Part shown: positions 7,060 through 62,118 of the stretch, in pieces
How positions within the stretch are numbered: the stretch's first letter is position 1
Layout: each line of letters opens with the position of its first letter
Source of the DNA: Deltaproteobacteria bacterium
GTDB taxonomy: Bacteria > Myxococcota_C > UBA6777
Reading direction: 5' to 3'
Length of the DNA: 64,000 nt
Assembly: GCA_002731275.1 (NCBI GenBank)
Contig: PCBK01000133.1
Coordinates: forward strand, 1-64,000
The notes under the pieces: generated by a model
Databases searched by the model: none
The model's input: only the letters and a program-made list of their open reading frames with translations
What the model was told of the DNA's origin: nothing
Program-made: the position numbers and the translations under genes

Positions 7060-10000
7060 TTACAGGTATATCTTTTCTTTTGTGCTCTCTATCTTCGATG
7101 CTTCACCACGCAAGGCGATCTCCAAAAGCCTCTCCACACCCTGTTTGGACGATAGTGACGAGAGAAAGTGGCCTTGTCGCAGCGCGATGTCTTTTACGCT
7201 CATCAACGTCTCTCTCCACACCGCAGGACAACCCCCCATAGCCGCCTGATCCTTAGAAGCCCTTTGGATGGCTTGGGCTGTGACGACTTCCTTTGGATGG
7301 TACATCGTATCGCCACTTTCCACGACCTCAACGAGAGAGAAGAGCTGTCTTAAGATACATTCGAGATAGAGATCTTGAAGAACGCAATTGTTATACGTAA
7401 AGACCCGTTGCATTCGATTGAGGTACTCTGTGAGAAAGCGCGCCTTTCCTTTCGCTTCGAGCGATGAATAGGCGGAGTATAGACCTGTTGTGAGCGCTTC
7501 ACCTTGCTGGACAAAGGCACCATGTGGAAAAAGTGGGGAGGATTTTCTTGGGATACGAATGGAGGTCGCGCGTCCGTCTTGTTCAACAAGCTCGAAGATG
7601 TCGTGATGTTGTGTGCTTCGGCAAAATCGCCACTCACCAGAGACAGGGGCGAGGAGCGCTGCGTCAGGGGAAGACGCTGGAGAGAGCCACTTCTGTGCGG
7701 AGGTCATCGGATGTGTGTAATGTGCATTGGGTTGTTCATCCGTGTCCGGAAGTGTCGCCAACACATCACCATTTGTGAGCTGCGCTCCATCCTGTACGTA
7801 AAGAGTGTAGCCCTCGAAGAGTAGGTAGTCTCGTTGTGTGTTGTCCTCGAAGGACAAGCGTATCTTGGGCAGGGGGTGTCGGCCTGAGACTTTGTAGAGC
7901 GCCAGACCTGTTTCGGGATCGATGGACTCTTGTAGATTGTCTCCGACGATACAATCGACCAATGAGACCGTTGCGCGTGTGCCTTCTGGTATGTTTGCGC
8001 TGAGTGTGTGTTCGGTATATCGGACCTGTTGATGAAGTCTCTCGCCGATGTCAGGTCTTGTGAGCCCCAGACAAGTCTTCAGATATGTTTGTGCTGCCCT
8101 GTGTCCTATCTGCGAATCGTCTCCCACAGGAGCGCAATATCGACAGATTCCTTCTTTGGCGTCGCATGTCAGCGGTGAGCGTATCTTGAAGCGCTGTATA
8201 CCTGATTGTTCTAGACGCTTGAGCGTCAAAGCTGTCAGTCGTTCACCTGCGCTGGCGAGGCACACTCCCATATCATCGATAATATCCTCTGCACAGCGTC
8301 TCCCTTGTACGCGCTCTACAAAGGATGTCTGTGTGGGGAAATGGACGTGGACATTCGCGTATTCGACGTCAATCCCCGCAGCGGTGCCACAATCCTCTTC
8401 GCCAAAGTGAAGTGGCTCCAAAGCTGTAAAGAGCGAGGAGACAAGCTCCATGTATGCCTGATGTTGTTGTTCTTTGTGTGTGAGTTGGAGTCTTCGTTCG
8501 TGTGCCAACAGACTCTTTTCGGTGGGTCGTAATCCTTGAAGCAGGTGTTTTGTGACAGGTAGATCGACGTGATACTCGCTCTGTGGGGGGATGTGTGTAC
8601 ACATGATGAGCAGGTCCCGCCACGGGTATGCTGAAGAGGTACCGTGAAGAGAGAGCAGCAACCCCAATCGCCACGTCCCTGGCGCAGAGAAGTCGATCGT
8701 CTCCGTGTATTGATGGACGAGTTGGGCGTGACATTGTGTTGTGTGGTGGGACCAGATATCTAAGTATTTGGATGTGTATTCTTGCTCTGTGATCAGGGCT
8801 TCTTTTTGTTGTTGCTTAAGCTCGATCAGGGCGTTTTGTGTGTTTTCGTGTTGTTGTGTATAAGCCTCTGGTAGAGACAGATCTTGTAGGCCAAGAGAGA
8901 AGGCCGAACGACTCCACGCTGTGATGGCGATGTGGTATAGCTCTGTAATGAACGCCGAGAGCGCGTCTTCTGTGAGCGTTGAGTGTGCTACTGTGAGCCA
9001 TTCTGAGACGTGTCTTTTGATGTGACGCATCGACGCACAATGAGACCACATCGGAAGGTCGGCAAGTGAGATGACTTGTTTATAGGGGGTCCACAGTTCC
9101 ATCAACAGAAGGCGGCCAACAGTCGTCACATAGTCATCTGTTTCTTGCTCGGGCAGACCGATAGAAGGATGGTAGGGCGGCTCCTGTTTGAGGTGCACAC
9201 GTCTGTGAAGAGATAGCTGTCCATGTTCATAGGCGTACAGGGCTTGTTTGTGATGTGTGTACATCACAGGTGGTCGTGGATCGAGCGCTGCTGTGAGATA
9301 GGCGAGGCTGGTGAACAGGTCTGTCTGATCGTCCCAGCGCAATGTCCGGTCTGATTGTGACCATAGTTGTTGAATGGGCGAGCATTGTGTGCGAGCTTCT
9401 TGTTGTGCCTGTGACGAGGAAGGCATATGGATATATAGATATTCAATCTCTTCGGGTTCATGGAGGAGCGCGGCTGTGAGGGGATGAAGTCGAAGCTGAT
9501 GTCCTTCACATAAGCTCGGACGCAGCGCGATGGGGGTCGTTGTCGCTGTGTGTGTGGTCGATTGTATGAGGATGACGCGCTCTTGCAGCCACGCTTCGAG
9601 TGTGGACCACTCCTGTGGAGAAGAGGCTGACCATGAGGGGGCTTGTGGGTGGTGTTGTTCGTACAGTGTGGCGGCGACCTGTACGGGGAGACCACATGTG
9701 GTAAGTGAGTAAGAGGGCGAGGCGATGAAGCCGATGGACAACAGCGCGCGTGTCTCTTTCTGTGAGGATTCTGGGCTGCTGTATCGTTGTAAGAGGTCAG
9801 TGAGAGAGATGAGCGGTCTCTTCGATTTGTCGACGAGTGTGTGTTTGCAGCGTGCGTTGTCAAAGAGGGCGTCGCAGGCTTCTTGGAGCATACGCTGCTC
9901 GTTGCGGATAATAATCTCCGGCGCGTTGAGCTCGATCAGTCTCTTGAGGCGGTTGTTTCTATTGAGAAGGCGTCGATACAGATCATTTGTGCTGAGTAAC

Positions 10001-13000
10001 CACTCTGTGCCACGTTCTTGCCAATCCTCTGTCCTGAGAGCAGGGGGGATGACAGGGATGACGCTGGTGAACATCGAGAGTGGTGAGATGTTGTTGTCTG
10101 CAAATTGCTTTGCGAGCGCGAGGCGTTTGGCCCATGTCTGTTCTTTTTGTGTCGTGCCGTCTTGTATGTGCGCCTCACAACGCTCCATAAAGGCGCGCAG
10201 GTCGAAGTCTTCCAGGAGTGTGTAGAGGGCTGCGGCGCCAGTCTCGATCGTAAAGTCTTGCGTTTCGGACATCGAGTAGAAGGCGTCCTCTGTGATCGTC
10301 GTGCCTTTTGGATAGGATGTGTCCTCAGAGCGCGTCACGACATGGAGGATGGATGAGGTGATATCCTGGACTTCTTTGGTGCTAAGACACAAGAGGCGCT
10401 GAAGGGGTTTGAGTGGATGTTTGATGTAGCCCATACGCAGGATGGGTGTTGCGAGTCTGATGTGTCCAAAGCGATGTTGTCGAGCCTTGAGAGAGATAAT
10501 CTCTACGCCACACTTCTCACAGGTGAGGTCTTTGTGCTCGGTGCCTTTGTACTTTCCACAGATACAGGTGTAGTCCTGGATGGGGCCAAAGATGCGGGCA
10601 CAAAAGAGTCCATCTCGTTCGGGTTTTTTGGTGCGTGCGTTGATCGTCTCCGGTTTGGTGACCTCTCCAAAAGACCGTGACAGTGTGTCTTCATCGGAGA
10701 CAAAGCCGAGGCGCAGTGTGTTGGAGGGCGTGGGGGATTCCAGAGACAGGACACTTTGGAAGCCATCTTCTGTGTCTTGTTGTAGTGACCAACCGAGTGA
10801 GAACAAGATCTGTGCGAGCTGTGTGAGCTTAGGTACGTTGGACGATGTCTCTGGAGAGGAGGCGTACACTTCGTCGATATTGAAGTGCAGGTGGTGACTC
10901 AGCCAGGACCAGAGTAGGTGCTCTCCAGGAAGATATGTATACACACCTTCCTGGATGAGAGGGAGCTTTGTGGTCTTGTCTGCGTAGGCGTCAGAGGGTT
11001 GCACCTTCATCCAATACATGAGGCCCGTAGGTGCATTCTGTTGTGTCCCTGTTCGTCCATCGAACAGCGGTAACTTACCGTGTTTGGAGAGACCAGCCTG
11101 TTCTAACAAGGTCGTATAGATTTCACTTGTAGAGGTCTCTGAGAAGGGCACGTTGACACTCGTTAGGCCGAGCTGTTTGGCAGCCCACGCGGTTTGTAAT
11201 TCGTATAACATGCCAGGCGCTTTGTGTGTCGCAAAGGCAAGCGGATGCATGATGATATCGACAGGTGTTCCGTCTGACAGCGCGGGCATCTCTTCTTGAG
11301 GGAGGATATGTGCGATGCGTCCCTGTAATCCGTGCCGATTGCCGAGTTTGTCACCTTCTCGGAGGGGACGTTTGCACGCGATATGAAGGGTCACACGTCT
11401 GAGGACCGATTTGCCGAGTTTGTGACGAGCTGGTGGTTTGTCGTGCTCGTCGAGTAATCCCGTTCTTTCGTAATAGGAGAGGGTGTCGTCATCACGGGAG
11501 AATGTGTGGCTGTCCTGGATCGAGATCTTGATCACTGTACCGGACATCCCAGGAGGGAGATGAAGGGAGGCATCTTCACCTGTTGTGAGGAGTGGTTCGT
11601 CTTTCTTGTCTTCGTCTGATAGGGCGAGATCGTACATACGGTCTCTTGTCTCTTGTGTGGGGCGGCGTTTGGCGACGAGGAGATCGCCTTCATGGACGTG
11701 ACTACCGACAGGGATGATGCCATACGGATCGAGCTGTGTGTGTTGTGTGGTCAGGAGGATGCGTTCGGGGCCATAGGTCGTGTCGTAGAGTGTGCAGGTG
11801 ATCTCTTCGATATGTACGGAGGTGAAGGCATCACTTTGGATGACTCGTTCGCTGACGAGTAATTGTTCCTTGGTGTTGAAGCCATCCCACGGAAGACACG
11901 CGGTGATGAGATTGTGTCCAAGGGCGATCGTACCGTCTTTGATACCCGGCACGTCACATAAGACATCCCCTCGATGGACTTGTTGTCCGGGCTTGACACG
12001 AAGACGTGCTGGGCTGTAGGGGCCTGTCTCCAGCGTTGTTCGTTGAATAGAGGTCTGTGTCTCGTCTATGAGGAGCGTGATGGAGGTGTCATCGATATGT
12101 TGGATGGTGCCTTCTTTGGGCGCAAATGTTGTGTGTCTTGATGCTTGTGCGAGGAACTGCTCTGTGCCTGTTTGGACGATAGGAGAGGTTGGATGGAGGA
12201 GTGGGATGGCTTGTGTGATGTTTTGGATGGCCTGCTCTGTCGAGGTGATGGAGAGGTGGCCTGCGAAGGGGATGAGAGAAGCCGCTGGTGAGGTCTGTTG
12301 ATAGTCGGAGACCTCTGTATGTGTGGTGTCTTTTGTGGAGAATCGTTTGAACGCCTGATCACTGTAACCCAATTGTTCGTGTGTTGTTTTTTGGGTGTCC
12401 CTTACGTGTCTGTACTGTTTTTCTGTGGGTCGCCAAGTGACGTCTTGTGGGGTTTTGATTGGGCTGAGTGGGATGTGTAATATGCCTCGCAGGTTGGGTT
12501 GGGTTGTGAGCGCGGGAGTGAACTTCAGCCCGGGGGGTGTAGAGTGTGTGAATGGGCAGAGACGTCCGAGCTGTGATGGGTGGACGAGATAGTCTTTGGT
12601 TTTGGGTGTGCGAAAACCATGCTTGAATGTTCGTCTGGCGTCGAGTTGACGAAGGTGATGTAAGCTCGCGAGTGGGTTGTGTGTGTGAAGTGGCTGACTC
12701 CATTGTTTCGAACGAAAGATCTCCTGCAAGCTCTTGTCGACGTGTTTGAACGACACGAGGTCCTTGATGTCTTCGGGGATATCTGTGTGTTGAAGCATAC
12801 TCAATCGTTCACGCACATAGCGCGATGTTTGTTCGAGGCCTTTTTTGCATTGCTGTGCGATGAGTGCGCCAGGAAGGACGACCTGCCAGTGTTTCATGTG
12901 GTTGAGGTCATCGAAGACGAGATCTTCAAAGATAGCATTTGTGTGGGGTGCTCTGGCCTGGATCAGGAGTCTTGTGATGCCGAATAGATCCTCTGGTGTG

Positions 13001-14331
13001 AGCTGCATACTCTCGTATGTGCCTGTGTATTTGATACGTTCGTTGAGGTGATCACGTCCTCTTTTTGAGAGGAAGTAGTGTGACTCTTTGTAGGGTGAGG
13101 GGTGGAGAAAGAGTTGTTCAAAGAATCGGTCTGCGGTCTCTTGTGTGGGTGGATCGCCTTTTCGGATGCGTTTGTAGAGGTCACTTCGTATTGTGTCTGG
13201 TGACCACTGATCTTGTGTGGTTTGGAGTGTTTGGTGGATGTCTTCGGCCAAAAAGCAGGTCTCAGGCGTTGTGTGTGCGAGTGTGAAAGAGGTGACACCG
13301 TGCTTTTCAAAGCGGCGAAGATGTTTGTCTGTGAGCTGGTCGCAAGCCGAGGCAAGACATGTTTGTTTTGTTGGGGAGTGGACGTCTTTTGCGAGATATT
13401 GTCCGAGCAGCGCTTCTTTTCTGATGGGGATGTGTGTGAGACCTGCGCGCTGGAGCAATCGTATCCGTAGGCCGAGTCTGTGTTTTCCAAATGAACGTCC
13501 TTGTGGGACGATGACCTTTCCTGCTGTGTCTTTGATGTCGAGGGTCGCATGTTGTCCGATGAGTTGTTCGGGTTCAACGGGCGTGAGGTAGGGGGTGTCG
13601 GAGCGTTCTTTGTGGATGAGGATGGTTTTTTGTGGGTAGAGTGAGGTGAGTATGTTCTGGGCTGTTTGTCCTGTCGCGCGTAGTAGGTCGACAGCAGGTA
13701 TGGGATGTCGTCGATCGAATGTGACTTTGCAAGTGTTGTGTGGGGTGAGTGTCCATTCGAGGAGTGTGCCTTCGAGGGGGGCGACTTGGGCTTTGATGGT
13801 GCTCTGGTTGTCTCGTTCTTCTCGGGTGAGATAGGCACCTGGGGATGGATGAAGGCGTGGGGAGAGGACCTTCTCGACACCTTTGATGATGAAGCTCCCT
13901 TTGGGGGTTGGACATGGAAGCTCTGTGAGGGGGAGGGTGGTCTCTGTGCTCCACGTATTTTCTTGAGCGTCTTCTTTTTGAAAGTGCAGATGGAGCGTGA
14001 TGTCCACACGTTGTGAGTATGTTTGTTTGTGTTGGATACATTCTTTGGGAGCGCGAAGAGGAGGGTGGATGTGGAGATCTGTACAGGAGAGCGTGAGCTC
14101 TCCGTTAAAGTCCTGGATCGGGAAGATCTCCTGAAGGACCCCCCACAGTGTATGTTCGGGAGCGATATAGTCGTCTGTGAGTGTGTCCTCTGTTGCGTAT
14201 TCTTCGAACGTACGTGTATGCAACAGGTGTGTGTAGGAGTCATGGATGTGTTGGAGCAGTGAGAGCGGGTGGAGTGGCAGGGGATTGTTGTGTGGTGAGG
14301 GTTGTGTCATGGTTGCCGTTGACTCCTTCAT
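7060..14331 (-). CDS. Fused RNA polymerase beta/beta-prime-like protein, catalytic site lost
   Basis: 2,423 aa in one uninterrupted frame. ATG 14331 follows AGGGGAATCATC; an ATG at 14385 has no ribosome site and a TTGACA box lies just above it. Residues 1-1200 follow RpoB (NGELTLS, KGSFIIKGVEKV, HNPLASLHHLRQLDARR, GDKLGNRHGLQG, LFDGRTG). Residues 1208-2423 follow RpoC (FGEVTKPETINARTKKPERD; Zn1 Cys 1256/1258/1271/1274; clamp helices 1449-1494; Zn2 Cys 1981/2056/2063/2066; RpoC-like C terminus). The NADFDGD loop aligns gap-free with HEPEEIE (1624-1630), the RVDYSGRS motif, bridge helix and trigger loop are unrecognisable, and the second beta lysine of GDK...GNKG is Gln. No rplJL or rpsL is nearby. 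It is presumably a paralogue that binds polymerase partners, sigma or nucleic acid without synthesis. Confidence 0.9.
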   Translation of the reverse strand: MKESTATMTQPSPHNNPLPLHPLSLLQHIHDSYTHLLHTRTFEEYATEDTLTDDYIAPEHTLWGVLQEIFPIQDFNGELTLSCTDLHIHPPLRAPKECIQHKQTYSQRVDITLHLHFQKEDAQENTWSTETTLPLTELPCPTPKGSFIIKGVEKVLSPRLHPSPGAYLTREERDNQSTIKAQVAPLEGTLLEWTLTPHNTCKVTFDRRHPIPAVDLLRATGQTAQNILTSLYPQKTILIHKERSDTPYLTPVEPEQLIGQHATLDIKDTAGKVIVPQGRSFGKHRLGLRIRLLQRAGLTHIPIRKEALLGQYLAKDVHSPTKQTCLASACDQLTDKHLRRFEKHGVTSFTLAHTTPETCFLAEDIHQTLQTTQDQWSPDTIRSDLYKRIRKGDPPTQETADRFFEQLFLHPSPYKESHYFLSKRGRDHLNERIKYTGTYESMQLTPEDLFGITRLLIQARAPHTNAIFEDLVFDDLNHMKHWQVVLPGALIAQQCKKGLEQTSRYVRERLSMLQHTDIPEDIKDLVSFKHVDKSLQEIFRSKQWSQPLHTHNPLASLHHLRQLDARRTFKHGFRTPKTKDYLVHPSQLGRLCPFTHSTPPGLKFTPALTTQPNLRGILHIPLSPIKTPQDVTWRPTEKQYRHVRDTQKTTHEQLGYSDQAFKRFSTKDTTHTEVSDYQQTSPAASLIPFAGHLSITSTEQAIQNITQAIPLLHPTSPIVQTGTEQFLAQASRHTTFAPKEGTIQHIDDTSITLLIDETQTSIQRTTLETGPYSPARLRVKPGQQVHRGDVLCDVPGIKDGTIALGHNLITACLPWDGFNTKEQLLVSERVIQSDAFTSVHIEEITCTLYDTTYGPERILLTTQHTQLDPYGIIPVGSHVHEGDLLVAKRRPTQETRDRMYDLALSDEDKKDEPLLTTGEDASLHLPPGMSGTVIKISIQDSHTFSRDDDTLSYYERTGLLDEHDKPPARHKLGKSVLRRVTLHIACKRPLREGDKLGNRHGLQGRIAHILPQEEMPALSDGTPVDIIMHPLAFATHKAPGMLYELQTAWAAKQLGLTSVNVPFSETSTSEIYTTLLEQAGLSKHGKLPLFDGRTGTQQNAPTGLMYWMKVQPSDAYADKTTKLPLIQEGVYTYLPGEHLLWSWLSHHLHFNIDEVYASSPETSSNVPKLTQLAQILFSLGWSLQQDTEDGFQSVLSLESPTPSNTLRLGFVSDEDTLSRSFGEVTKPETINARTKKPERDGLFCARIFGPIQDYTCICGKYKGTEHKDLTCEKCGVEIISLKARQHRFGHIRLATPILRMGYIKHPLKPLQRLLCLSTKEVQDITSSILHVVTRSEDTSYPKGTTITEDAFYSMSETQDFTIETGAAALYTLLEDFDLRAFMERCEAHIQDGTTQKEQTWAKRLALAKQFADNNISPLSMFTSVIPVIPPALRTEDWQERGTEWLLSTNDLYRRLLNRNNRLKRLIELNAPEIIIRNEQRMLQEACDALFDNARCKHTLVDKSKRPLISLTDLLQRYSSPESSQKETRALLSIGFIASPSYSLTTCGLPVQVAATLYEQHHPQAPSWSASSPQEWSTLEAWLQERVILIQSTTHTATTTPIALRPSLCEGHQLRLHPLTAALLHEPEEIEYLYIHMPSSSQAQQEARTQCSPIQQLWSQSDRTLRWDDQTDLFTSLAYLTAALDPRPPVMYTHHKQALYAYEHGQLSLHRRVHLKQEPPYHPSIGLPEQETDDYVTTVGRLLLMELWTPYKQVISLADLPMWSHCASMRHIKRHVSEWLTVAHSTLTEDALSAFITELYHIAITAWSRSAFSLGLQDLSLPEAYTQQHENTQNALIELKQQQKEALITEQEYTSKYLDIWSHHTTQCHAQLVHQYTETIDFSAPGTWRLGLLLSLHGTSSAYPWRDLLIMCTHIPPQSEYHVDLPVTKHLLQGLRPTEKSLLAHERRLQLTHKEQQHQAYMELVSSLFTALEPLHFGEEDCGTAAGIDVEYANVHVHFPTQTSFVERVQGRRCAEDIIDDMGVCLASAGERLTALTLKRLEQSGIQRFKIRSPLTCDAKEGICRYCAPVGDDSQIGHRAAQTYLKTCLGLTRPDIGERLHQQVRYTEHTLSANIPEGTRATVSLVDCIVGDNLQESIDPETGLALYKVSGRHPLPKIRLSFEDNTQRDYLLFEGYTLYVQDGAQLTNGDVLATLPDTDEQPNAHYTHPMTSAQKWLSPASSPDAALLAPVSGEWRFCRSTQHHDIFELVEQDGRATSIRIPRKSSPLFPHGAFVQQGEALTTGLYSAYSSLEAKGKARFLTEYLNRMQRVFTYNNCVLQDLYLECILRQLFSLVEVVESGDTMYHPKEVVTAQAIQRASKDQAAMGGCPAVWRETLMSVKDIALRQGHFLSSLSSKQGVERLLEIALRGEASKIESTKEKIYL

Positions 14332-14463
14332 GATGATTCCCCTGAGCGTCAGGGATGTGGGATGGGGTTGTCCTTTACGTACCATGTATGTATGTCATGT
14401 TGTCAACAACCTCCCGAGCTTCCGTATCCTTTTTTATCCGATAGGCCGTATGGAGTATGATCG

Positions 14464-25742: not shown

Positions 25743-27065
25743 TTATGGTTGTTTCTTGAGGCAATAATCTGCGGAGAGGAGCGTCAATCCTTCTTTTTTC
25801 AGATAGATGATGGGGTTTTTTTGTTTTGGTAGTTGGAAGACACACTGCGCGAAGCCTTTTTGTTCGACGAGGATCTCGCCAGGCGATGCGGGGACACAGA
25901 AGCCACCTTTGACGCGATGTGCTTTGCCTGATTCTACGTCGACGTCGGCATTTTTTCTGAGCGCTGGGAGTACTTTGATAAACACTCCATTCTTTTGCTT
26001 ACACAAACTCGTCTTTTGGGGTTGCCCCGTCTTCTTTTGGGGTTGGCCTGTGGTCTTTGTCTTGCCTTGAGAGGTTTGGCGATTGGAGGGGGGAGCTTTG
26101 CGTGCTTGTGTGTTGCCTTGCTTGGGAGTCGCTTTGGGTTGGGCTGTTTGTTTGTTCGCAGCCAGCGTCTGTTTTGCAGGTGTGTTGGTCTTTGTGGGTT
26201 GTCGCAGGGCAAAGTAGCCTGTGGCACCAGCGACCGCGACGACCGCGAGCGATGTTGCGACCCAGAACGCGGCGCTACCAGCGGCAAAGATCCCGGCACC
26301 TCCCGCTGAGACGGTCCCCGCCGCGGCTGATATGCTCGCCGCTTGTGACGCTCCTGCGAGGACACCGCTTGCTTGTGAAGTCGCTGTACCTGCGACGTAT
26401 TGGCTGGCATGTTGGAGACTGTCCTGTACGAATTGTTTCGCTCGTGCCTCAAGTTGCTCCTTGAGCATGTCTTTGAGTTGGTCTTTGACCTTGTCTTTCA
26501 GCTCATCTTTGATCTTGTCTTTGATCTCCTCTTCGATTTTTTTGCGCAGGAGATATTCGTGCTTCGCCCACTGGAACGCGTAGAGAAAGGCATCGACGTC
26601 TTGGTAGCGTTCCTCTGGCTCTCTGGCGCACGCTTTGGCGATGAGTTGGTCGATTGGGTGTAGCAAAAGATCCTGAAAGTCATTGTTTGCGAGTGCAGGA
26701 GGGTATGCGCCGAGGGGCGCGGTTCCTGACATCAAGGTGTAAAGTAAGACACCGAGGGAGAAGACCTCACTTGTTGGAGAAGGCTCTTCACCTTGTTTGA
26801 CCTCTGGTGCTACGAAAGATGCGGAGTCTTCGATAAGGCGCTGCAAAGAGGGTTGCTGAAGAGCGAACAAAACAGGCTCTTCTTCATCGAGCACTTCGAT
26901 GTATTCGGGAGCAAGTCCACCTAGTCGTTCTTCGTCCTGGTGGGGGTCGTGGAGGTGTGCGCACAATGTGACAAACATCGGGAAGAATCGCTGTGGCTGC
27001 TTGCGTTGTTTGGGCGTTTGATTGGTGAGGAGCGTGTCGAGTGTTTGTGTCGCTTGTTCTGGCAT
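25743..27065 (-). CDS. Pseudokinase with coiled coil, TM helix and PEGA-like tail
   Basis: 440 aa, ATG 8 nt after AGGT. Residues about 80-165 match only the C-lobe of a Ser/Thr protein kinase: FVAPEV (APE), SEVFSLGVLLYTLMSGTAPLG and AKACAREPEERYQDVDAFLYA. The G-loop, VAIK Lys, HRD and DFG are absent and only about 80 residues precede the APE, so it cannot be an active kinase. Then come a Lys/Glu coiled coil (KKIEEEIKDKIKDELKDKVK...), an Ala/Gly-rich segment with one TM helix near 265-285, a Gln/Lys/Thr linker and a C-terminal PEGA-like domain. Possibly a signalling scaffold in the inner membrane, first in the operon-like block. Confidence 0.75.
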   Translation of the reverse strand: MPEQATQTLDTLLTNQTPKQRKQPQRFFPMFVTLCAHLHDPHQDEERLGGLAPEYIEVLDEEEPVLFALQQPSLQRLIEDSASFVAPEVKQGEEPSPTSEVFSLGVLLYTLMSGTAPLGAYPPALANNDFQDLLLHPIDQLIAKACAREPEERYQDVDAFLYAFQWAKHEYLLRKKIEEEIKDKIKDELKDKVKDQLKDMLKEQLEARAKQFVQDSLQHASQYVAGTATSQASGVLAGASQAASISAAAGTVSAGGAGIFAAGSAAFWVATSLAVVAVAGATGYFALRQPTKTNTPAKQTLAANKQTAQPKATPKQGNTQARKAPPSNRQTSQGKTKTTGQPQKKTGQPQKTSLCKQKNGVFIKVLPALRKNADVDVESGKAHRVKGGFCVPASPGEILVEQKGFAQCVFQLPKQKNPIIYLKKEGLTLLSADYCLKKQP

Positions 27066-47347: not shown

Positions 47348-49795
47348 TCAGCGTTTTTTGGATATTTTTTGCCAGATGGACCACGCAAAGGCGAGGGGGA
47401 TGAGTAAGAACGAACCGTAGGCTGCGAAAGCAGAACCTCCGGAGTGAAAGAGGGCTGCGATTCCACGATCAAACGATTCATCATTGATCAAATATGTCCA
47501 TGTCGATGTCGGGCGCTGCATTCCGTCCTCGTTGAGAATAAAGCGTCCGTCTTTGATCTCCGATGAGGTAAAGGTCTCTACTGTCTTGTCTTCGATCCGT
47601 TGGTAGATATCTTCAAATGCCTCGACAGCCTGACGGCAGAAAAAGAAGAACGGAGGGGGACCAGCCGCGCTTTGTAGGTGAATCCCTTCTCTAATGTCTG
47701 TGAGATGGGCGAGGTGTTGGGCCCAACAGGTGTCGAGGTGGATGAGGACGACCTTTCGCGCAAGCTCCGCAAGTGCTTCTTCGGACATCAACGCAGAAAG
47801 TTCTCGAAACAGTGAGGGCATCGCCTCCTTGAGAATAAGCACGCCCTCCTCACCGTTGAGAATGTCCGCTCTATACGTGTGGATCGTCTCACGTTGTTGT
47901 TCGATAAAAGACGAGTATTTGAACAGCGTTTGTCGGATCGTGAAGTTTTGACCTTCGATAATACGTTGTGTACGTGCGACCTCTCTTCGAAAAATCGGGT
48001 TATCAAGTGGAGCGTCTTGTGAAGTCGGCAGCAGCCTCTTTGGGATCAGCGCCTTGACCTCAAAACGCGCCATCAATTCATCTTCTAGGCTGACAAAAAA
48101 GCACGAGGAGCCTGGATCACCTTGACGACCTGCGCGTCCTCGCAGCTGATAATCGATACGTACGCTCTCATGTCGGTTTGTACCGATGACATAGAGGCCA
48201 CCTGCAGAGACGACGGCGTCGCGTTTGGCTTCGTCGTGTCCACCGAGCTTGATGTCGACGCCTCGACCTGCCATGTTCGTCGATATTGTGATCGCGCCAG
48301 GGAGCCCTGCTTGTGCGATGATCTGTGCTTCGAGTGCGTCTGTGCGAGCATTGAGCACCTCGTGGGGGATCTCTGCCTCTCGTAGCAAAGCCGAGATGGT
48401 CTCGGACTCTTCGACACTTGCTGTCCCCACAAGGACCGGGCGTTGTTGGGCTCTGGATGTACGGATCGTTTGGACGAGCGCTTTGTGTTTGGCGTCGACA
48501 TTGAGGAACAAGATGTCCTCTTCATCTCTTCGGATACATGGTGTGTTGGTTGGGATAACGACGACTCGTAAGCCATAGAACGTGTGGAATTCATCTTCAG
48601 CAGGGCGCGCGGTCCCCGTCATACCCGCGAGATGTGTATATTGCCTCATCAGATGTTGTAGTGAGATGGAGCCAAGGACTTCGCCCTCTGGCTGGAGCTC
48701 CAAACCTTCTTTGGCTTCGAGGGCTGCCTGAATGCCATCGGGCCACTGACGGTCATCGACGACACGCCCTGTGAACTCGTCGATCAATTCAATCTTTCCA
48801 TGTTTGACGATGTAGTCGACGTCCTTCTTGAGTAACACGAGCGCGTGCAGCGCGACCTGCAGACCTGTGAGAAGGGCGTGGTTTTCGGGCGCGTGTAAGG
48901 GGCCACAAGAGAGACGCTCTTCGAGTGTATCTTGTCCTTCATCTGTCAAAAAGAGCGTGCGTTGGAATTCGTCCGTTTTGTAGTGCTCATTTCGGGTGAG
49001 CTCCTTGACGATCTGTGCGAGTTTATATGGATCGATATGTTGCTTCTCTTTGGTCCCTGCGATCACGAGAGGGACGCGGGCTTCGTCGATTAAGATGGAG
49101 TCCGCTTCGTCGACAATGGCATAATGGAAGGGACGGTGGACAGCATCTTGAGGAGCGAGGACGAGGCGGTCCCGAAGGAAGTCAAAGCCGGCCTCTTTGG
49201 CTGTGGCGTATGTGATATCCTGACGCCACGCCTGCTGTCTCTCCGAGGTCGACATGTGTTTCTCGACAGCACCCACTGAGAACCCCAAGAAGCGGTAAAT
49301 CTCCCCCATCCAGTCGGCATCACGTTGGGCAAGATAGTCGTTGAAGGTGAGGATTTGGACGCCTTTGCCTTCAAGGGCATGGAGGCAGGCTGGCATGACC
49401 GCCGCGAGCGTCTTCCCTTCTCCTGTCTGCATCTCCGCAACATTTCCTTGGTGAAGGACGATCCCCGCGAGCAATTGGACATCAAAAGGACGCATCGCGA
49501 GTGTCCGTTTGGCGGCCTCTCGTACGATCGCAAAGACATCGAACAGCAAGTCATCCAAAGAGATACCCTGTTGGGCTTGTTGCCGAAAGGTCTCTATATG
49601 TTCCCTCAGTTGTTCATCTGATTGGGACGCGTAGATCTCCTCAAGAGCATTGATTCGTTCGATATATTCGTCGTATGAGGAGGTCGTATACTCGACGGGC
49701 GCCTCACGCAAGCGATGGATATACTGCTGGAACTTCCCTGGGATAGGATACATATAAGGTGACTCCAAGAAATGATTGTTGAGACCTGAGGCCAT
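47348..49795 (-). CDS. Accessory SecA-like ATPase with C-terminal TM
   Basis: About 815 aa. ATG 49795 is taken; a TTG at 49834 (GAGG upstream) and ATG 49753 are alternatives; the longer ORF overlaps gltB and is spurious. SecA features: MQTGEGKT (Walker A), DEADSILIDEARVPLVIAG, VLVGTASVEES, NMAGRGVDIKLGG and RGRAGRQGDPGSS. The helical scaffold is divergent (AAGPPPFFFF), there is no C-terminal SEC-C zinc motif, and the protein ends with a hydrophobic helix and KISKKR. It appears to be a paralogue specialised for one substrate or envelope task, not the housekeeping SecA. Confidence 0.8.
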   Translation of the reverse strand: MASGLNNHFLESPYMYPIPGKFQQYIHRLREAPVEYTTSSYDEYIERINALEEIYASQSDEQLREHIETFRQQAQQGISLDDLLFDVFAIVREAAKRTLAMRPFDVQLLAGIVLHQGNVAEMQTGEGKTLAAVMPACLHALEGKGVQILTFNDYLAQRDADWMGEIYRFLGFSVGAVEKHMSTSERQQAWRQDITYATAKEAGFDFLRDRLVLAPQDAVHRPFHYAIVDEADSILIDEARVPLVIAGTKEKQHIDPYKLAQIVKELTRNEHYKTDEFQRTLFLTDEGQDTLEERLSCGPLHAPENHALLTGLQVALHALVLLKKDVDYIVKHGKIELIDEFTGRVVDDRQWPDGIQAALEAKEGLELQPEGEVLGSISLQHLMRQYTHLAGMTGTARPAEDEFHTFYGLRVVVIPTNTPCIRRDEEDILFLNVDAKHKALVQTIRTSRAQQRPVLVGTASVEESETISALLREAEIPHEVLNARTDALEAQIIAQAGLPGAITISTNMAGRGVDIKLGGHDEAKRDAVVSAGGLYVIGTNRHESVRIDYQLRGRAGRQGDPGSSCFFVSLEDELMARFEVKALIPKRLLPTSQDAPLDNPIFRREVARTQRIIEGQNFTIRQTLFKYSSFIEQQRETIHTYRADILNGEEGVLILKEAMPSLFRELSALMSEEALAELARKVVLIHLDTCWAQHLAHLTDIREGIHLQSAAGPPPFFFFCRQAVEAFEDIYQRIEDKTVETFTSSEIKDGRFILNEDGMQRPTSTWTYLINDESFDRGIAALFHSGGSAFAAYGSFLLIPLAFAWSIWQKISKKR

Positions 49796-49979
49796 TCCCT
49801 GTGTGGGTTGGTGGATTGTATTTGGCGAGGACAAAGTAAGTGCCTCTGCACCATTGTCAAACACAAAGATCAAACAGGGGCGGAGAATGGAGTGGGGTTG
49901 ATTCGGTGATTGCGAGGAGAGAGCCACGAAGGCTGCTGTGAGGAAAAAGCGCGTGGGAGAAGGCTGTAGAGCTGGAGCC

Positions 49980-52900
49980 TTAGGATTCGATGGGGACGAA
50001 TTTGATGAGGTGTTGGTGTTCTGTATCCCAATGTTCGAGGAGGCGTTTGGCTTTGTGGCTTCCTGTCTCTTCGAGGTATTCGAGGAGCAGGCCACGGACA
50101 GTGTGTTCGTCTTCTTGGGTGAGCGCTTGCGGGGTGATGTATCCTGTGTGGTGGTGGGAGGGTTTGGGTTTGTATACAAAGACAGTACCACCTGTCATAC
50201 CTGCGCCGAGGTTGGGGGAACAGTCTCCGAGGATCACGATGTATCCGTCAGTCATGTACTCACAAGCGTGATAGCCTGTTCCCTCGACGACGGCTGTTGC
50301 GCCACTGTTTCTGACGGCGAAGCGCGCACCGGCCAAGCCATGAACAAAGAGTTTTCCGCCTGTTGCACCGTAGAGCGCGCCATTTCCGATGATTGTGTTG
50401 GTGTCTCTTGCGTAGGCGGCCTCTGGAGGAGGCTGGATCACCATCTTCCCACCGCTCATGCTTTTGCACACGGAGTCGTTGGCCTCCCCGTAGAGTTGGA
50501 CTTCGAGGCCATCGACCAAAAAGACCCCAAAGCCCTGTCCAGCGCTACCTTTGAATTCCAACTGAATCGGTGTGCATGTCGGTGTTTCGACGCCAAACGC
50601 GTTTTGTGTGGCTTGTGTGCGATGTTGCTTGACTTGCTTGGCCATAACACCAGAAAGAGTCGCAAGGACCGCTCGATCTGTTGATTTGATCGCGTATTGT
50701 TTGGAGACGTGGCGTTCACCTTGGAGGGCTGGTTTTGTATCGTCGAGTAATTTTTGATTGAGTCGACCGATATGATGGGGATGGAAGACATCTTTTCCTT
50801 CTGTCGGGTAGGCTTTTTGCAAAAAGAACGAGAGGTCGAGATGTCGTTGTTCGATGAGCGGGCGTTGTTGCTCGTTGATATGGAGGAGGTCTGTACGTCC
50901 GAGTAAGTCGTCTAATGACGAGAATCCCAGAGTCGCGAGATGGTGGCGGACGTCTTCTGCGAGCAGCTGTAGGAGTTTGACGATGTGTTCACTTTGCCCT
51001 TTGTACTTGGCCTTGAATTTGGGGTCGTGTGTCGCGATCCCTGTTGGGCAGGTGTTCTTTTCGCAGATCCGGGCCATCACACAGCCCTCAGCGATCAGCA
51101 AGAGTTTCCCAAAGTCGTACTCTTGGGCACCCATAATCGCCGCGAGGATGATGTCTTTTCCACGATGAAGTCCTCCATCGACGCGCAGCGTGACTTTCTC
51201 GCGCAGGTCATTGTCGACGAGCACTCTGTGGACTTCCATCAGGCCAAGCTCCCAGGGTAATCCTGCATGTCGCATCGACATCAGCGAGGCGGCGCCTGTC
51301 CCACCGTCTCCACCTGCGACATGGATGATATCGGCGCCGGCTTTGGCGACACCGACCGCGATCGTACCGATTCCAGGACCGGAGACGAGTTTGACGCTGA
51401 CGCGGGCTGTGTGGTTGAGCTGTTTGAGCTCGCAGATCAGCTCCTTGAGGTCTTCGATGCTGTAGATGTCGTGGAGCGGTGGTGGAGAGATGAGGGCGAT
51501 GCCGGGCTTGGCGTGTCGGGCTTTGGCGATCTCTTCACTGACCTTGGAGGCGAGCAGTTGTCCACCTTCACCGGGTTTGGCGCCCTGGGCAATCTTGATC
51601 TGAATCTCCTCACTTGTGACGAGATATTCGGCTGTCACACCAAATCGACCGGAGGCGATCTGCTTGACGTTACAGGTGATTCCCTCTGTGTAATAGTATG
51701 GGTTTTCGCCACCTTCACCGCTGTTGCTGCGTCCGCCAAGTTCGTGCATCGCGAGGATCAGGTCTCTCTGAGACTCCGCGCTGATCGCGCCAAAGGACAT
51801 CGCTCCCGAACCGAACCTTCTGGTGATATCGCGGCCAGGAAGTACGTCGTCGAGTGGGAGCGCCGGGTTGTCTGAGGAGAAGCTAAAGAGGTCGCGAATG
51901 TGCATGGGGAGACTGCCATCAGCGAGGGAGAGATACTCTTTGTAGTCCTCTCGTAATTCGTCGACAGAGCGTTCATCTCGTACGATCGTGTGGAGCATCT
52001 TAGAGAGTGTGTTGGTCATCGAGTGTTTTTCGCCGACAAGACCTTTATTATGCTCCCTGTAAATGTACGTCTTATCAGGCTTATACTCTTGCAGTGGGGG
52101 GAGCGATTGGACACGTGTGATGATTTGTTCACAGAGGTCTTCAAGCTCAACACCACCGATGGGGCTGTTGATACCAGGGAAAAACGTCTTGACGATCTTG
52201 GGGCCAAGTCCCATCGCGAGGAAGAGTTTGGCGCTTTGGTAACTCCGCACGACGGAGATCCCCATCTTGGCCATGATCTTGAGCAAACCCTTCTCAAACG
52301 CTTGTAGAAGCAGGTGTTCTCGCTCCTCAATGGGGATCTTTTCGAGTTTTCTGTGTGCGGAAAATCGGACAAATTCGAGCGCGAGATTGGGACAGACTGC
52401 TGTCGCCCCAAAGCCGATCAACGTCGCGAACTCGTGTGGGCTGCGGATCTCTGCGCTCTCCACGACGATCGATGTATCGAGCCGCATTCCCGCTTCGTTG
52501 AGCGCGTTGGTGACTGTGCGCAACACGAGCAGACTCGGGATAGGGGGTTCTTCTGCTGTCGCATGGCGGTCGGACAGGAGCAAGATGGGGATGCCTTGGC
52601 TGGCGGCTTTGACTGCGCCCTCTGCGATGGATTTGAGGACAGAGCGCATCCCCACAACACCATGTGCGCGGTTAAACTTCATATCAAAGTGCTGGACTTG
52701 CTGTTCCCCAGCACTCTTCTCTGAACGTCGCTGCCACTCCCAAAGCACCTCGATCTGTTCGAGGTCGAGAAGTGGGCTACTTAGTGCATAACCTGGTTTG
52801 GGTGGGATCAACTCGTTAGGGGCGAAGATGTTGGGGCATGGTCCCAAGAAGGTCCGCAGATCTGTGACGATTTTTTCACGGATGTAGTCGAGGGGTGGGT

Positions 52901-57302: not shown

Positions 57303-59675
57303 TTACTTGCATTTTTTTGAGAGGGCTGGTGTTTCTATTCCTGCGGAGATGCGTTGGTACTTCAGATTTTGCTTTGTGAGCTTGAACTTGTTGTCTCGCT
57401 CTGGACAAAACTTGGGGTGGCCGCCTTGTAGTATGCTAGAGCAGTAATGATAGCCAGGCATAATTGAAGTTCTGTAGGTTTCGGATGGGAAGTGTATGAT
57501 TTTTTTCCACTCTTCGACGGTGACAAGTTTGTTGCTGCTCGTTGGATCGAGTACCCTTTTGCCTTTGTCTGTATTCAAAAGCAAGGCTACATGATTGCAC
57601 CATTCGTACTTTTTGCCTTTGTGCGTTATCCAAATTCGTTTTTTGGGACATCCTGGTTTCCCTCGTTTTGGAAGTGCCCATATTTTTTGGCTGTATATGC
57701 CTTGTTGATTGGCCAATCCCCACATTGCATGGGCTCGAATAGGGCTACCATCATCCACATGGAGTTTTTCGATTGGAAAGCATTCATGAATGGAGAGGAG
57801 CCGAAACAATCTGTTGGCTCTTTCCAGTGACACTATTTCTTCTGGAGCAACTACTTTTACTGGAGGGAGGAATGATGGAGTGGACTTGGATAAGAGTTTT
57901 CGGAGCGTTTTGTAAATGGATTCGTTTGTGCTTGGATTCTGGCCGGCTTTTTTGCCAGGCTTGCACATCTTTTCCACAATGTTCAAAGGTGAGAGCCCGT
58001 ACTTGCTCTTTATGTTGGGATTTGCTCCCTTCGCCAAGAGATGTCGGGTCACTGGAATGCAACATTTATCTGCTGCTATAGCCAACATTGTGTGTCCGTC
58101 AATCGTCTTGTTTACATCGAGTCCACGTTTGAGATAGCATTTTACGATCTCTGTTTCACATTGACTCACTGCGCGGAATACCTCTTCTTTGCTGGGATTT
58201 GCTTTGCATTCTAGAACCCTTCGAGTCCTTTTATCGAGAAGCATCGAGCGGAGTTTTGTGTAGATAGCGTCATCTGTAGCTGGATTGTTGCGAGGATTGC
58301 ACTTCCTTTCCACAATGTTCAAGGGCGAGAGCTTGTACTTGTTCATTGTGTTGGGATTTGCTTTCTTATCCAAAAGAAGTCGGGTGACTGGAATGCAACA
58401 TTTATCTACTGCAGCAGCCAACATTGTGTGTTCCTCTTCGTCAATCACCTTGTTCACGTCGATGTTGTGACGGCTGAGAAAGCATTTTACGAGTTCTGTT
58501 TCACAGTAACTTATTGCTCGAAAGATAGATGTATCTTTGAGTGGTTGTTCAAGGCACTGTCTTGGAATACAGTTTCCTCTTTCGCACACCTGATCAAGAT
58601 CACACTTTTTTTCACATCCACCGCAATGTGCTATGTTGGTTGTCAGGTTGTAGCAATCCCCATCACAACAGGATTGACCTGATGCGCAAGCTCTACCGCA
58701 TGTACCACAGTTCTTTTTGTCACTTTTCAAGTTTACACAGCGAACACCGCACCTTGTAAAGCCTTGTTGACAAGTGGGAGGTTGGTCGATTGTTGGTTGT
58801 CTATCTGGAAATCTCTCCGAATGATTTGGCTGAATCACAATGTGAGAGTTTGGCGGGGTAAAGTGCCAAACTGCAATCGCAGTGAGGCCAATAACGAACA
58901 GCAAAGCCAGAACAAACCAGAATATGTAAGTTTTTGAATGAGTTTTGTTTTCTGGGAGGTTTGGAGTCGGGAAAATGTCGACTTCGTTGGTTGTCGTCTT
59001 TGGGGGATTTACGCTTGCTGCAAAATGTTCGGCTTCTTGTTTGATATCTTCTGTGGGAGCTTGTGTTGTTTGTTGGTCTATGCGCTTTCTGATTTGCTCT
59101 CCAATTTGATTGAATGTCTCGTTTTCGGGGAGATATTCTGTTCGGGGTTGAAGATTCTTCAGAAGAGTGAGGAGTGGTGTCGAACCATCCGCAAGCTTTT
59201 GCGTCCTGTTTAGGAAGTGGAGTACGAGCAACAAATGATTGGAGGGAACAGATGAACTTGGAAACAGTTGGGAAAAACCTGCTCCAAAATGGATGAATAG
59301 GAAGTCTGTATCCTCAGCTCCCAAAGTGTTGATGATGGTTGTGTGGAGTTTGTGGAGATCTTCTTGCGTCAGAATGGAATCATTTGGATCGTTTGGTGGT
59401 TGGTTTGCGTTCAGTAACTTATCAAGCGTGTCACAGTTGTTGTTTTGTGCCTGATCGAGGATGTACTTGGCCTCATTCAAAACGATGAGTAAAGCATCTG
59501 GCGATGTTCGGCGGTTGAGTGCATACAAGATGCCTGATAGGTCACTTGAGGGACTTGATGTTCTTGGAAGAGAGCCTCTTACCCCTGGATCTAGAGGTGC
59601 TACAAGATTTTGGATTTCGATCTGGCCGAGGCATGTTTCCGATAACAATTGGTTGATTTGTTCGTTTGATAGCAA
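57303..59675 (-). CDS. EAD-like/Cys-rich/ankyrin/protein-glutaminase-like membrane protein
   Basis: 790 aa, TTG start with AAGGAG 8 nt upstream. Residues about 1-75 and 120-185 are helical modules resembling effector-associated domains (LNRTQKLADGSTPLLTLLKN). One TM helix lies near 250-270. A Cys-rich part (CGVRCVN...CGTCGRACASG...CGGCEKKC) is followed by two ankyrin-like repeats that are close duplicates (ETELVKCFL...; ETEIVKCYL...). The C-terminal 150 residues fit the protein-glutaminase fold: DDGSPIRAH, EWCNHVALLL and RVLDPTSS, aligning with the Cys/His/Asp triad, but the nucleophilic Cys is Ser. Predicted effector-type protein. Confidence 0.7.
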   Translation of the reverse strand: MLSNEQINQLLSETCLGQIEIQNLVAPLDPGVRGSLPRTSSPSSDLSGILYALNRRTSPDALLIVLNEAKYILDQAQNNNCDTLDKLLNANQPPNDPNDSILTQEDLHKLHTTIINTLGAEDTDFLFIHFGAGFSQLFPSSSVPSNHLLLVLHFLNRTQKLADGSTPLLTLLKNLQPRTEYLPENETFNQIGEQIRKRIDQQTTQAPTEDIKQEAEHFAASVNPPKTTTNEVDIFPTPNLPENKTHSKTYIFWFVLALLFVIGLTAIAVWHFTPPNSHIVIQPNHSERFPDRQPTIDQPPTCQQGFTRCGVRCVNLKSDKKNCGTCGRACASGQSCCDGDCYNLTTNIAHCGGCEKKCDLDQVCERGNCIPRQCLEQPLKDTSIFRAISYCETELVKCFLSRHNIDVNKVIDEEEHTMLAAAVDKCCIPVTRLLLDKKANPNTMNKYKLSPLNIVERKCNPRNNPATDDAIYTKLRSMLLDKRTRRVLECKANPSKEEVFRAVSQCETEIVKCYLKRGLDVNKTIDGHTMLAIAADKCCIPVTRHLLAKGANPNIKSKYGLSPLNIVEKMCKPGKKAGQNPSTNESIYKTLRKLLSKSTPSFLPPVKVVAPEEIVSLERANRLFRLLSIHECFPIEKLHVDDGSPIRAHAMWGLANQQGIYSQKIWALPKRGKPGCPKKRIWITHKGKKYEWCNHVALLLNTDKGKRVLDPTSSNKLVTVEEWKKIIHFPSETYRTSIMPGYHYCSSILQGGHPKFCPERDNKFKLTKQNLKYQRISAGIETPALSKKCK

Positions 59676-59952: not shown

Positions 59953-62100
59953 TCAGATGAAAATGATCTCGGAGGGATCTTGTAGAGCCAGTGTTGCGGA
60001 CTCTGTCTGGATCTTCATGGGATCGTGTTCCGAGAGCTCACCAAAAGAAAGTCCTGTCTTCTGCTCGATCCATGCGATCGATTGTTGGTACGTTTTATGC
60101 GCTCCAAATACAAACTCTTCCTCTTGCAGATAATCCTCTTGTGACATCGAATATCCCGTTGCGGTCAATTTCCCCGTCTCATCGTGCTGAAAAACAATGA
60201 TCTTCCAGAACAATACAGGGATCTGGATGTCGTATCGAAATGGATCGTCTTCTTGAAATACCGGACCCGTGAATACGGAGATGTTCATGTCGTCTTCGCG
60301 CGCATGATCCAATGCGTAATCTTCGAGCCGCAGCCAAATACCCGCATTGAATGGTTGCATTTGAGGGACTGCGTTTGTCACGTGCATAGAGTCGTCATTT
60401 CCCCTCTTGGCTGCTGCATCCGAACCCCATACCGGATCTTCACGCCTTGTCATATGACCCCGGCTGAACTTTGGTGGGTTACCATAACACTCCTTGCGGA
60501 TTTGGTATTCTCTCGGTATACGAGGATCATATCTCCAACCTGTGCGCTTCTTTTTCTTCGACTTACTGCCGCTGATGTTGACCGCGCTGTAAAAACACAT
60601 CCTTCTGTGTTTGTTCATGACCACCGAAAAATGCTGATAGTCCAAAACAGAGAGTCCCTCCTCTCCATCGAAGTCAAACGTCAAGATGTCCTCTTCGTGT
60701 TTGGTAAATGCTGGAAGAGGGACGTTAAACGTATCACCAAGAAAGTCAGCCTTGTAACCTTGGCGGACACCTCGGCGAGATTTGTATTCATCGGCCTTTG
60801 AACCCTCGCTAAACACCGATGCCTTTTCATCTTTTTCGGGGAACGATGGGAGCCCACCTTGTATTGGGGGTTCATTTGGAGCTGTTGATGATGGGGGAGT
60901 CGTTGAGGGAGCTGTCGCAGGGGTTGGGGATGGTGGGGTGGGTTGAGGGGCCAACGCCGTTTGTGTATCTCCAACCTGAATGGTGACATTGATAGGGATT
61001 GTTAGTGTGATCGCGTTTGATTCAGGATGAGCTGTTGTCGTAAATGGCGTTTCCGTTGGCTTCTCTACCATGATTCTTTCTCCTGGAGAGTGGATGGTTG
61101 CTCCCTGGCTGATTTGGTGGAGTCGCTCGCTGATCAGCGTCGACGGAACCGCATAGTTGGCCTTCAGAAATCGACCCGCAAAGTGTATACCAACCGCTTG
61201 CCCTGTTTCCAAGTCGAGCACAACCGAGCCTGAATTGCCCCCAAGTGTCGACGCATCATGTTCGAAGTATGTTGGTGTTACATTCATCACCATACCCGGT
61301 GCCAACCGTTTCTTGTTGTAGATGTTCCCAAAGAGCTTCTCCATCAACTCCTGATCTGGTAGCCTCAAATCTCTCGCGGGGTAGCCGATAATCGCAATAT
61401 TTTTCTTTTGTTTGGGACCTTGTTGTGAAAGTGAAATGGGTTCACGCTCACAAGGTTTGACCTGCAAAAATGCGAGATCTGGACCTTTCTTCCCTTCGAT
61501 GTGGAGGATCCTTACCAAGTCAAAATGAGCTTCTCTGGGATTTTCGAACTCTTCTAGAAAATCGATACGTGCTTTGACGGCCCCGCCTCTGAAACCCCTA
61601 CCAAAAGAAAAGGCTCCATTTCTCTCCACCGCGAATGCGCTTGCGACATGTCGGTTGGTCACAATGATATCTGGTGTGACCAACCAGCCCGTCCCTGCCC
61701 AATCTCTTCGATGGCCCTGAAGTTCAATACGTCCAACCGCAGGAATTGCCTTCTTGAGATACTTGGAAGCTTCTTGTAAACGAGTCTTCCAAGTTGCGCT
61801 CTCTGGATCTTGGAACTTTAACTCTGCTTCGTCGCGATAGACCCTGAGTACAGGACGTCCTGTCCTATATACTATCGTCTCAAGATCCAAGCCTACAGGG
61901 AGGTATGGAGTGCCTTCTGGAATGGGAGTCAACACTTCTGGTGTTGGCTGGAGACTTCGCGTAGGAGTGAGGATTTCCAGGACGGGCTTATTTTGTCCGG
62001 TATAGACGTCTAGCTCTTTTTTGAGCTCTTCACCAAGTTCTTGATCTCTCTCTTGTACCCGACTCAACGCTTCTTTGAAGGGGGTATTCCCTGTACTCAT
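59953..62100 (-). CDS. Trypsin-like protease fused to DNA/RNA non-specific endonuclease
   Basis: 715 aa; ATG 62100 follows AAGGAGG by 6 nt. After a coiled-coil-like N terminus, residues about 110-340 are a trypsin-like domain: GTGWLVTPDIIVTNRHVA (His), GPDLAFLQV (Asp) and TLGGNSGSVV (Ser). A Pro/Thr-rich linker (about 380-430) leads to a non-specific nuclease domain (about 465-690) with SRGHMTRRED (DRGH-like catalytic His) and NAVPQMQPFNAGIWLRLED. There is no signal peptide. Both catalytic sets appear intact. In prokaryotic conflict systems, such proteases and nucleases act as effectors; that role is inference. Confidence 0.85.
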   Translation of the reverse strand: MSTGNTPFKEALSRVQERDQELGEELKKELDVYTGQNKPVLEILTPTRSLQPTPEVLTPIPEGTPYLPVGLDLETIVYRTGRPVLRVYRDEAELKFQDPESATWKTRLQEASKYLKKAIPAVGRIELQGHRRDWAGTGWLVTPDIIVTNRHVASAFAVERNGAFSFGRGFRGGAVKARIDFLEEFENPREAHFDLVRILHIEGKKGPDLAFLQVKPCEREPISLSQQGPKQKKNIAIIGYPARDLRLPDQELMEKLFGNIYNKKRLAPGMVMNVTPTYFEHDASTLGGNSGSVVLDLETGQAVGIHFAGRFLKANYAVPSTLISERLHQISQGATIHSPGERIMVEKPTETPFTTTAHPESNAITLTIPINVTIQVGDTQTALAPQPTPPSPTPATAPSTTPPSSTAPNEPPIQGGLPSFPEKDEKASVFSEGSKADEYKSRRGVRQGYKADFLGDTFNVPLPAFTKHEEDILTFDFDGEEGLSVLDYQHFSVVMNKHRRMCFYSAVNISGSKSKKKKRTGWRYDPRIPREYQIRKECYGNPPKFSRGHMTRREDPVWGSDAAAKRGNDDSMHVTNAVPQMQPFNAGIWLRLEDYALDHAREDDMNISVFTGPVFQEDDPFRYDIQIPVLFWKIIVFQHDETGKLTATGYSMSQEDYLQEEEFVFGAHKTYQQSIAWIEQKTGLSFGELSEHDPMKIQTESATLALQDPSEIIFI

Positions 62101-62118
62101 CAGCAACCTCCTTGATCA

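Follow-up and report, generated by a model that had tools for sequence, protein, structure and literature searches.

The β and β′ subunits of RNA polymerase are normally single and essential, and they are among the most constrained proteins of the cell. The locus described here carries a second, divergent copy of both in one open reading frame, and the question is what such a protein does and whether it is still a polymerase. The window, that is, the whole stretch of 64,000 nucleotides analysed, is the start of a 114-kb contig (C122) in the genome of a Deltaproteobacteria bacterium, which is large, the organism being related to the Myxococcota. The fused gene, pseudo-RpoB-RpoC, lies at 7060..14385 on the minus strand, as do all of its parts given below, and comprises 2441 codons from the first ATG in a single open reading frame with the terminal stop only. 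A second in-frame ATG at 14331 would give 2423 codons; it has a GGGGA-like ribosome site upstream of it and is the more probable start. A sequence-only reading of this DNA had placed the gene at 7060-14331, which is the same frame read from the second ATG.

The protein is collinear with β and then β′ over its whole length in NCBIfam, PDB and alignment comparisons, and is about 28% identical to canonical RpoB/RpoC. The β to β′ order, the junction, both zinc sites and the two C-terminal parts, which had been noticed earlier in the translation, were all recovered by these comparisons. The best NCBIfam model was that of the β/β′ fusion PRK09603 (E 2e-203), and matches were also found to TIGR02386 (rpoC; E 3e-143, model positions 2-1130 of 1147) and PRK00405 (rpoB; E 6e-142). 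All three are far under the curated cut-offs (678 bits vs 5372, 478.9 vs 963.5 and 457.6 vs 801, respectively). AlphaFold models of the two halves had a mean pLDDT of 58 each. Fold prediction, which had been suggested as a check, returned RNA polymerase β′ and β as the best PDB matches, but with low confidence and poor overall geometry; the models neither support nor exclude a stable fold and count as weak support at most.

The β′ clamp helices are the main docking site for sigma region 2 and NusG/RfaH, and the β flap tip holds sigma region 4. Residues of pseudo-RpoB-RpoC were mapped onto E. coli RpoB and RpoC using 24-25 canonical sequences. In the β′-like half (residues 1206-2441; 7063..10770), the front part is well preserved. 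The N-terminus (10594..10716) retains 83% of invariants, zinc site 1 (10510..10566) retains four of four cysteines (CICGKYKGTEHKDLTCEKC) and 74% of its invariants, and the clamp helices (9856..10005; E. coli β′ 260-309, the site for sigma region 2 or NusG) retain 76-80%, with R275, E295 and A302 intact. Substitutions of these three residues impair holoenzyme formation in E. coli (PMC8321222). Retention then drops sharply at E. coli β′ position 333. The switch 2 region (9712..9801) is destroyed, with 11% of invariants left, and R425 and the lid are also lost. The NADFDGD site (9442..9462) now reads HEPEEIE, so that the three Mg-binding aspartates are gone (D460P, D462E, D464E). The bridge-helix region (8416..8526) keeps 17% of its invariants and the trigger loop 12-25%; the region of the first trigger-loop helix (8056..8130) is degraded and carries deletions that remove R933 and H936. 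The β′ C-terminal region retains 11%. Zinc site 2 (8134..8391) has four of four cysteines (the C at DCGT, then TCDAKEGICRYC) and 75-88% of its invariants. Taken together, the clamp set (N-terminus, zinc site 1 and clamp helices) keeps 64 of 83 invariant columns (77%), compared with 117 of 355 in the remaining β′ (Fisher p 2e-13) and 33 of 168 (20%) in the catalytic-centre set (p 2e-13). The canonical RNA polymerase of the host keeps 99-100% of the same columns.

In the β-like half (residues 26-1205; 10771..14310), the protrusion and lobes are kept, with 56-67% of invariants retained, and most of the fork/rifampicin region is lost. The E813-D814 site (11866..11871), part of the invariant NFED, is now K-E. 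At 11323..11349 the GDKMAGRHGNKG motif has become GDKLGNRHGLQG, in which K1065 is retained and K1073 is replaced by Q. Among the NTP- and Mg-site residues, E813, D814, K1073, R1106 and H1237 are lost and K1065 is the sole survivor. In the flap-tip region (11575..11664), invariants are kept at 21-26%, the helix that binds sigma region 4 (EEKLLRAIFG) is gone and its hydrophobic face is lost. The C-terminus is 11-20% identical to that of E. coli, and the assembly region is degraded. The residue-by-residue alignment confirms the earlier impression that catalytic motifs have been lost, and shows such losses in both halves. By descent, the protein clearly belongs to the RNA polymerase family; by function, it fails almost all catalytic features tested, with K1065 as the only exception.

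The host also has a core enzyme of the ordinary kind. Its assembly (10.75 Mb in 200 contigs, not closed) is 94.65% complete with 5.5% contamination. The canonical pair that the sequence-only reading had proposed to look for is found on contig C34 as separate genes, rpoB for a protein of 1500 aa and rpoC for one of 1406 aa; in four relatives the corresponding proteins are 74-78% identical to these. Long open frames had suggested fused canonical rpoBC genes in three of these relatives (G002-G004), but their ORFs show separate genes. The host genome has one rpoA and 58 matches to sigma70_r2 (sigma70 region 2), which are candidate sigma proteins for a single core enzyme.

We searched for relatives of the full-length fusion. 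The window's phylum is represented by five genomes in our collection, including the host. No orthologue was found in the other four, among 195 Myxococcota genomes or, at exact-octapeptide sensitivity, among 84,980 genomes, and in none of these three sets was there a homologue with an intact catalytic motif. When 386 genomes were searched broadly by profile, all of the matches listed looked canonical; two candidates were scored per genome, so the known range of the family is a lower bound. Pseudo-RpoB-RpoC is so far a singleton, found in one genome, and dN/dS was not computable for it because there is no orthologue in the collections.

Shorter proteins of a related kind were found by scanning Myxococcota for second copies of the β′ N-terminal domain and by profile search. 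Six Myxococcota genomes (G211, G213, G210, G209, G127 and G064) encode mini β-β′ fusions of 740-815 aa, in which the β flap region and C-terminus are joined to the β′ clamp and dock; the proteins have no lobes and end before the catalytic motif. These genomes also carry a separate canonical rpoC, where assembled. Type A minis, in G211 (L178:6452-8806, minus strand), G213 (L179:4433-6853, plus) and G210 (L180:5503-7716, plus), keep the clamp helices (83-85% of invariants) and have lost zinc site 1 and the flap tip; those of G211 and G213 adjoin a clpA-like gene. Type B minis, in G211, G213, G209 and G127 (L182:1138-3582, plus; L183:4968-7379, minus; L204:5436-7775, minus; L205:5902-8340, minus), keep the flap tip (61-78%) and zinc site 1 (87-100%) and have lost the clamp helices. 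Their C-terminus is an alpha-CTD, recognized by Pfam PF03118 in the two proteins tested (E 7e-16 and 1e-9) and by eye in the other two. The RpoC start peptide MKDIFSFFE is internal in type B, ahead of a segment that resembles the β C-terminus. G211 and G213 each carry one type A and one type B gene at separate loci. The mini of G064, from another Myxococcota family (L181:5619-8027, plus), keeps the flap tip and zinc site 1 and has partly degenerate clamp helices; all three are partly retained, and it is possibly closest to the ancestral form. In the minis, invariants of the catalytic parts are retained at 7-31%. The type A pair of G211 and G213 has a dN/dS of 0.24 (dS 0.31) and the other orthologous pair 0.31 (dS 0.41), which indicates purifying selection on the minis.

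A protein of 349-361 aa in G003, a relative from the window's own phylum (L031:9209-10294, minus), consists of the β′ N-terminus and clamp helices only and has lost zinc site 1. Its gene adjoins a copper monooxygenase-like gene. In the six clamp-bearing pseudo copies, N266, D267, L268, Y269, N274, R275, N276, R278, E295, L299 and Q300 are kept in all, and the switch-2 stretch 338-344 is lost in nearly all. The window protein, the minis and the G003 protein are alike in having no catalytic centre and in occurring beside a canonical RNA polymerase. The window protein, type A and the G003 protein keep the clamp helices, whereas type B instead keeps the zinc ribbon and adds an alpha-CTD. They differ in size: the window protein is of full length (2441 aa), whereas the G003 protein has 349 aa and the minis, with 740-815 aa, lack the lobes and everything past the dock. 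In a tree of the region common to the window protein and the minis, the long branches were saturated at the ceiling of the program and formed a polytomy. Of the phylum-derived residues examined in the β and β′ parts of pseudo-RpoB-RpoC together, 6 were shared, 9 were like other bacteria and 18 were neither.

These observations strongly suggest that pseudo-RpoB-RpoC is a maintained, catalytically dead β-β′ pseudoenzyme under selection. We give roughly an even chance to the proposal that this pseudo-RNA polymerase, whose ancestor was a bacterial rpoB-rpoC pair, binds sigma or NusG-type factors as a decoy or scaffold. The fold would be built around the clamp, and the intact clamp helices and zinc ribbon may bind one or more sigma factors through region 2, or NusG-type factors. 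The protein would then compete with the real core enzyme for the factor, or hold the factor in reserve. With 58 candidate sigma proteins vying for one core, the host would be a setting in which a sigma sink could matter. Because the flap tip is lost, any sigma contact would be one-sided and limited to region 2, and a NusG-like ligand is equally possible. The minis, whether independent of the window protein or related to it, have dropped the catalytic centre and keep just the factor-binding parts: the clamp helices in type A, and the flap tip, zinc ribbon and added alpha-CTD in type B. It is conceivable, though we hold it a little below an even chance, that all of these proteins form a class of dead β-β′ and β-β′-alphaCTD chimeras that imitate the surfaces on which factors dock to the core, and regulate transcription through the capture of sigma, NusG/NusA or activators. 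Such a class possibly evolved more than once, with the window gene as its fullest member and types A and B dividing the surfaces between them. Of the functions proposed at first sight, the decoy or regulator fits the retained parts. A template-binding role does not, as degradation has gone furthest in regions that include switch 2, the lid, the bridge helix and the fork, and an anti-phage sensor is without support, since PADLOC profiles matched neither the gene nor its neighbours.

The main point that the decoy model leaves unexplained is the length preserved beyond the clamp, since a simple decoy needs no 2,400 residues. Shortening, as seen in the Myxococcota minis, is what one would expect of a pure decoy, whereas here both subunits are near full length and the protrusion, lobes and zinc site 2 are well retained. 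The chief rival is accordingly a selected pseudoenzyme whose ligand is neither sigma nor NusG, namely a structural scaffold that assembles with the host alpha subunit (or with the canonical RNA polymerase) and inhibits transcription, serves as a partner in hibernation or blocks the path of elongation. As there is a single rpoA, any alpha partner would be shared with the canonical enzyme. The degraded C-termini of both halves, however, argue against ordinary core assembly, and we consider this explanation rather unlikely.

A further concern is that contig C122 was binned from another organism. The contamination of the assembly and the absence of the gene from relatives would allow this, but the tetranucleotide profile of the window is nearest to that of the rpoBC contig of its own genome (correlation 0.62, the best among tested loci outside C122; 0.18-0.55 for other species), and the gene itself correlates with the flanking window at 0.75. 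Misbinning seems improbable, and the nature of the gene would be unchanged whichever organism owns it.

The gene could also be a functionless duplicate, recently inactivated or slowly decaying, and its occurrence in a single genome would suit such an origin. Its coding frame speaks against this. When DNA of this base and dinucleotide composition was simulated by a first-order Markov model, 67 stops were expected per frame (200 runs, none with fewer than 47), and no open frame exceeded 300 codons, versus 2441 codons here; the other five frames across 7060-14385 contain 39-135 stops each. Host codon preference is +0.099 per codon in frame and negative in both shifted frames (0.17-0.20 for canonical rpoB/rpoC). 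Third positions rich in A and C also occur in other minus-strand genes of the window, and this is thus a local trait rather than one specific to the gene. A neutral sequence that had diverged to about 28% identity, in a family with 74-78% identity between relatives, would be full of stops, yet 7.3 kb show neither a stop nor a frameshift, and the retention of one functional surface is not random. The absence of stops and the host-like codon use indicate that the gene is maintained and not decaying, and the view that selection acts on the full-length frame, first argued from the open frame itself, gains from the codon use and from the selective retention of the clamp. Decay is very improbable.

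Continued synthesis of RNA or another polymer by a rebuilt active site, with HEPEEIE in place of NADFDGD, is scarcely credible: glutamates do stand at the D462 and D464 positions, but D460, R425, the bridge helix, R933/H936 and β E813, D814, K1073, R1106 and H1237 are lost jointly, and to our knowledge DxDxD is kept even in far diverged phage and silencing polymerases.

An origin as a phage or mobile-element polymerase lodged in the chromosome is just as implausible, although giant phages encode divergent β/β′ proteins (PMC4666361): genuine phage RNA polymerases match only weakly (127 bits, about 25%), the surrounding annotation is without phage genes, and bacterial-type zinc sites and clamp helices are kept. 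By tblastn against plasmid and phage collections, the full-length matches were cellular rpoBC only, at no more than 29% identity, and the best phage matches lay in contaminated records. The profile of the mini family, run against viral contigs, gave two weak matches, neither relevant. The phage records OR84xxxx-OR85xxxx, CAKLQF020000005 and CAKLQH020000005 hold cellular rpoB-rpoC genes, i.e. host DNA contamination.

Several known systems resemble parts of this picture. Bacterial RpoB and RpoC, including the natural RpoB-RpoC fusions of Helicobacter and Wolbachia (PRK09603, PRK14844), have the same β-β′ order, both zinc sites and the clamp helices, but pseudo-RpoB-RpoC is about 28% identical to them, is without an active site and has a separate canonical pair in its genome. 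Likewise a core polymerase paralogue in the same genome is the additional rpoB known from actinomycetes, rpoB(R) in Nonomuraea and rpoB2 in Nocardia; its substitutions at rifampicin-linked positions (H526N) alter an active polymerase (PMC5431353), and it is not fused and has not lost catalysis. Giant phages have multisubunit RNA polymerases (vRNAP/nvRNAP of phiKZ and their relatives) that are also divergent β/β′ relatives outside the rpo operon, but these are active and split (PMC4666361, PMC8287921, PMC7481178), whereas pseudo-RpoB-RpoC is fused, inactive and closer to the cellular enzyme. Classical anti-sigma factors (review PMC3861889) have the effect proposed here, withdrawal of sigma from the core; they are unrelated in sequence, whereas the sink proposed here would reproduce the docking site of the core itself. 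Fusions of β with β′, second active copies of rpoB and phage polymerases that have diverged are already known. In the literature searched, which was incomplete, we found no bacterial inactive RNA polymerase paralogue, neither a maintained dead β-β′ fusion beside a canonical pair nor flap-clamp-alphaCTD chimeras.

Other genes of the window, all on the minus strand, were noted in passing. A SecA-family protein of 947 aa (47348-50191) overlaps the end of gltB. For the product of 25743-27065 the match to protein kinases is partial and weak (27 bits, under the cut-off), and this protein may be a further pseudoenzyme. A multi-domain STIG1/ankyrin/EAD5/glutamine deamidase protein (57303-59675) and one that joins trypsin to a non-specific DNA/RNA endonuclease (59953-62106) resemble effector or defence-type proteins.

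In conclusion, if pseudo-RpoB-RpoC captures factors as proposed, cells would regulate transcription by a mimic of the polymerase instead of conventional anti-sigma factors. Such regulation may be relevant to lineages with very many sigma factors. Counting rpoB and rpoC matches as RNA polymerases, as in marker-gene sets and completeness checks, can mislead.
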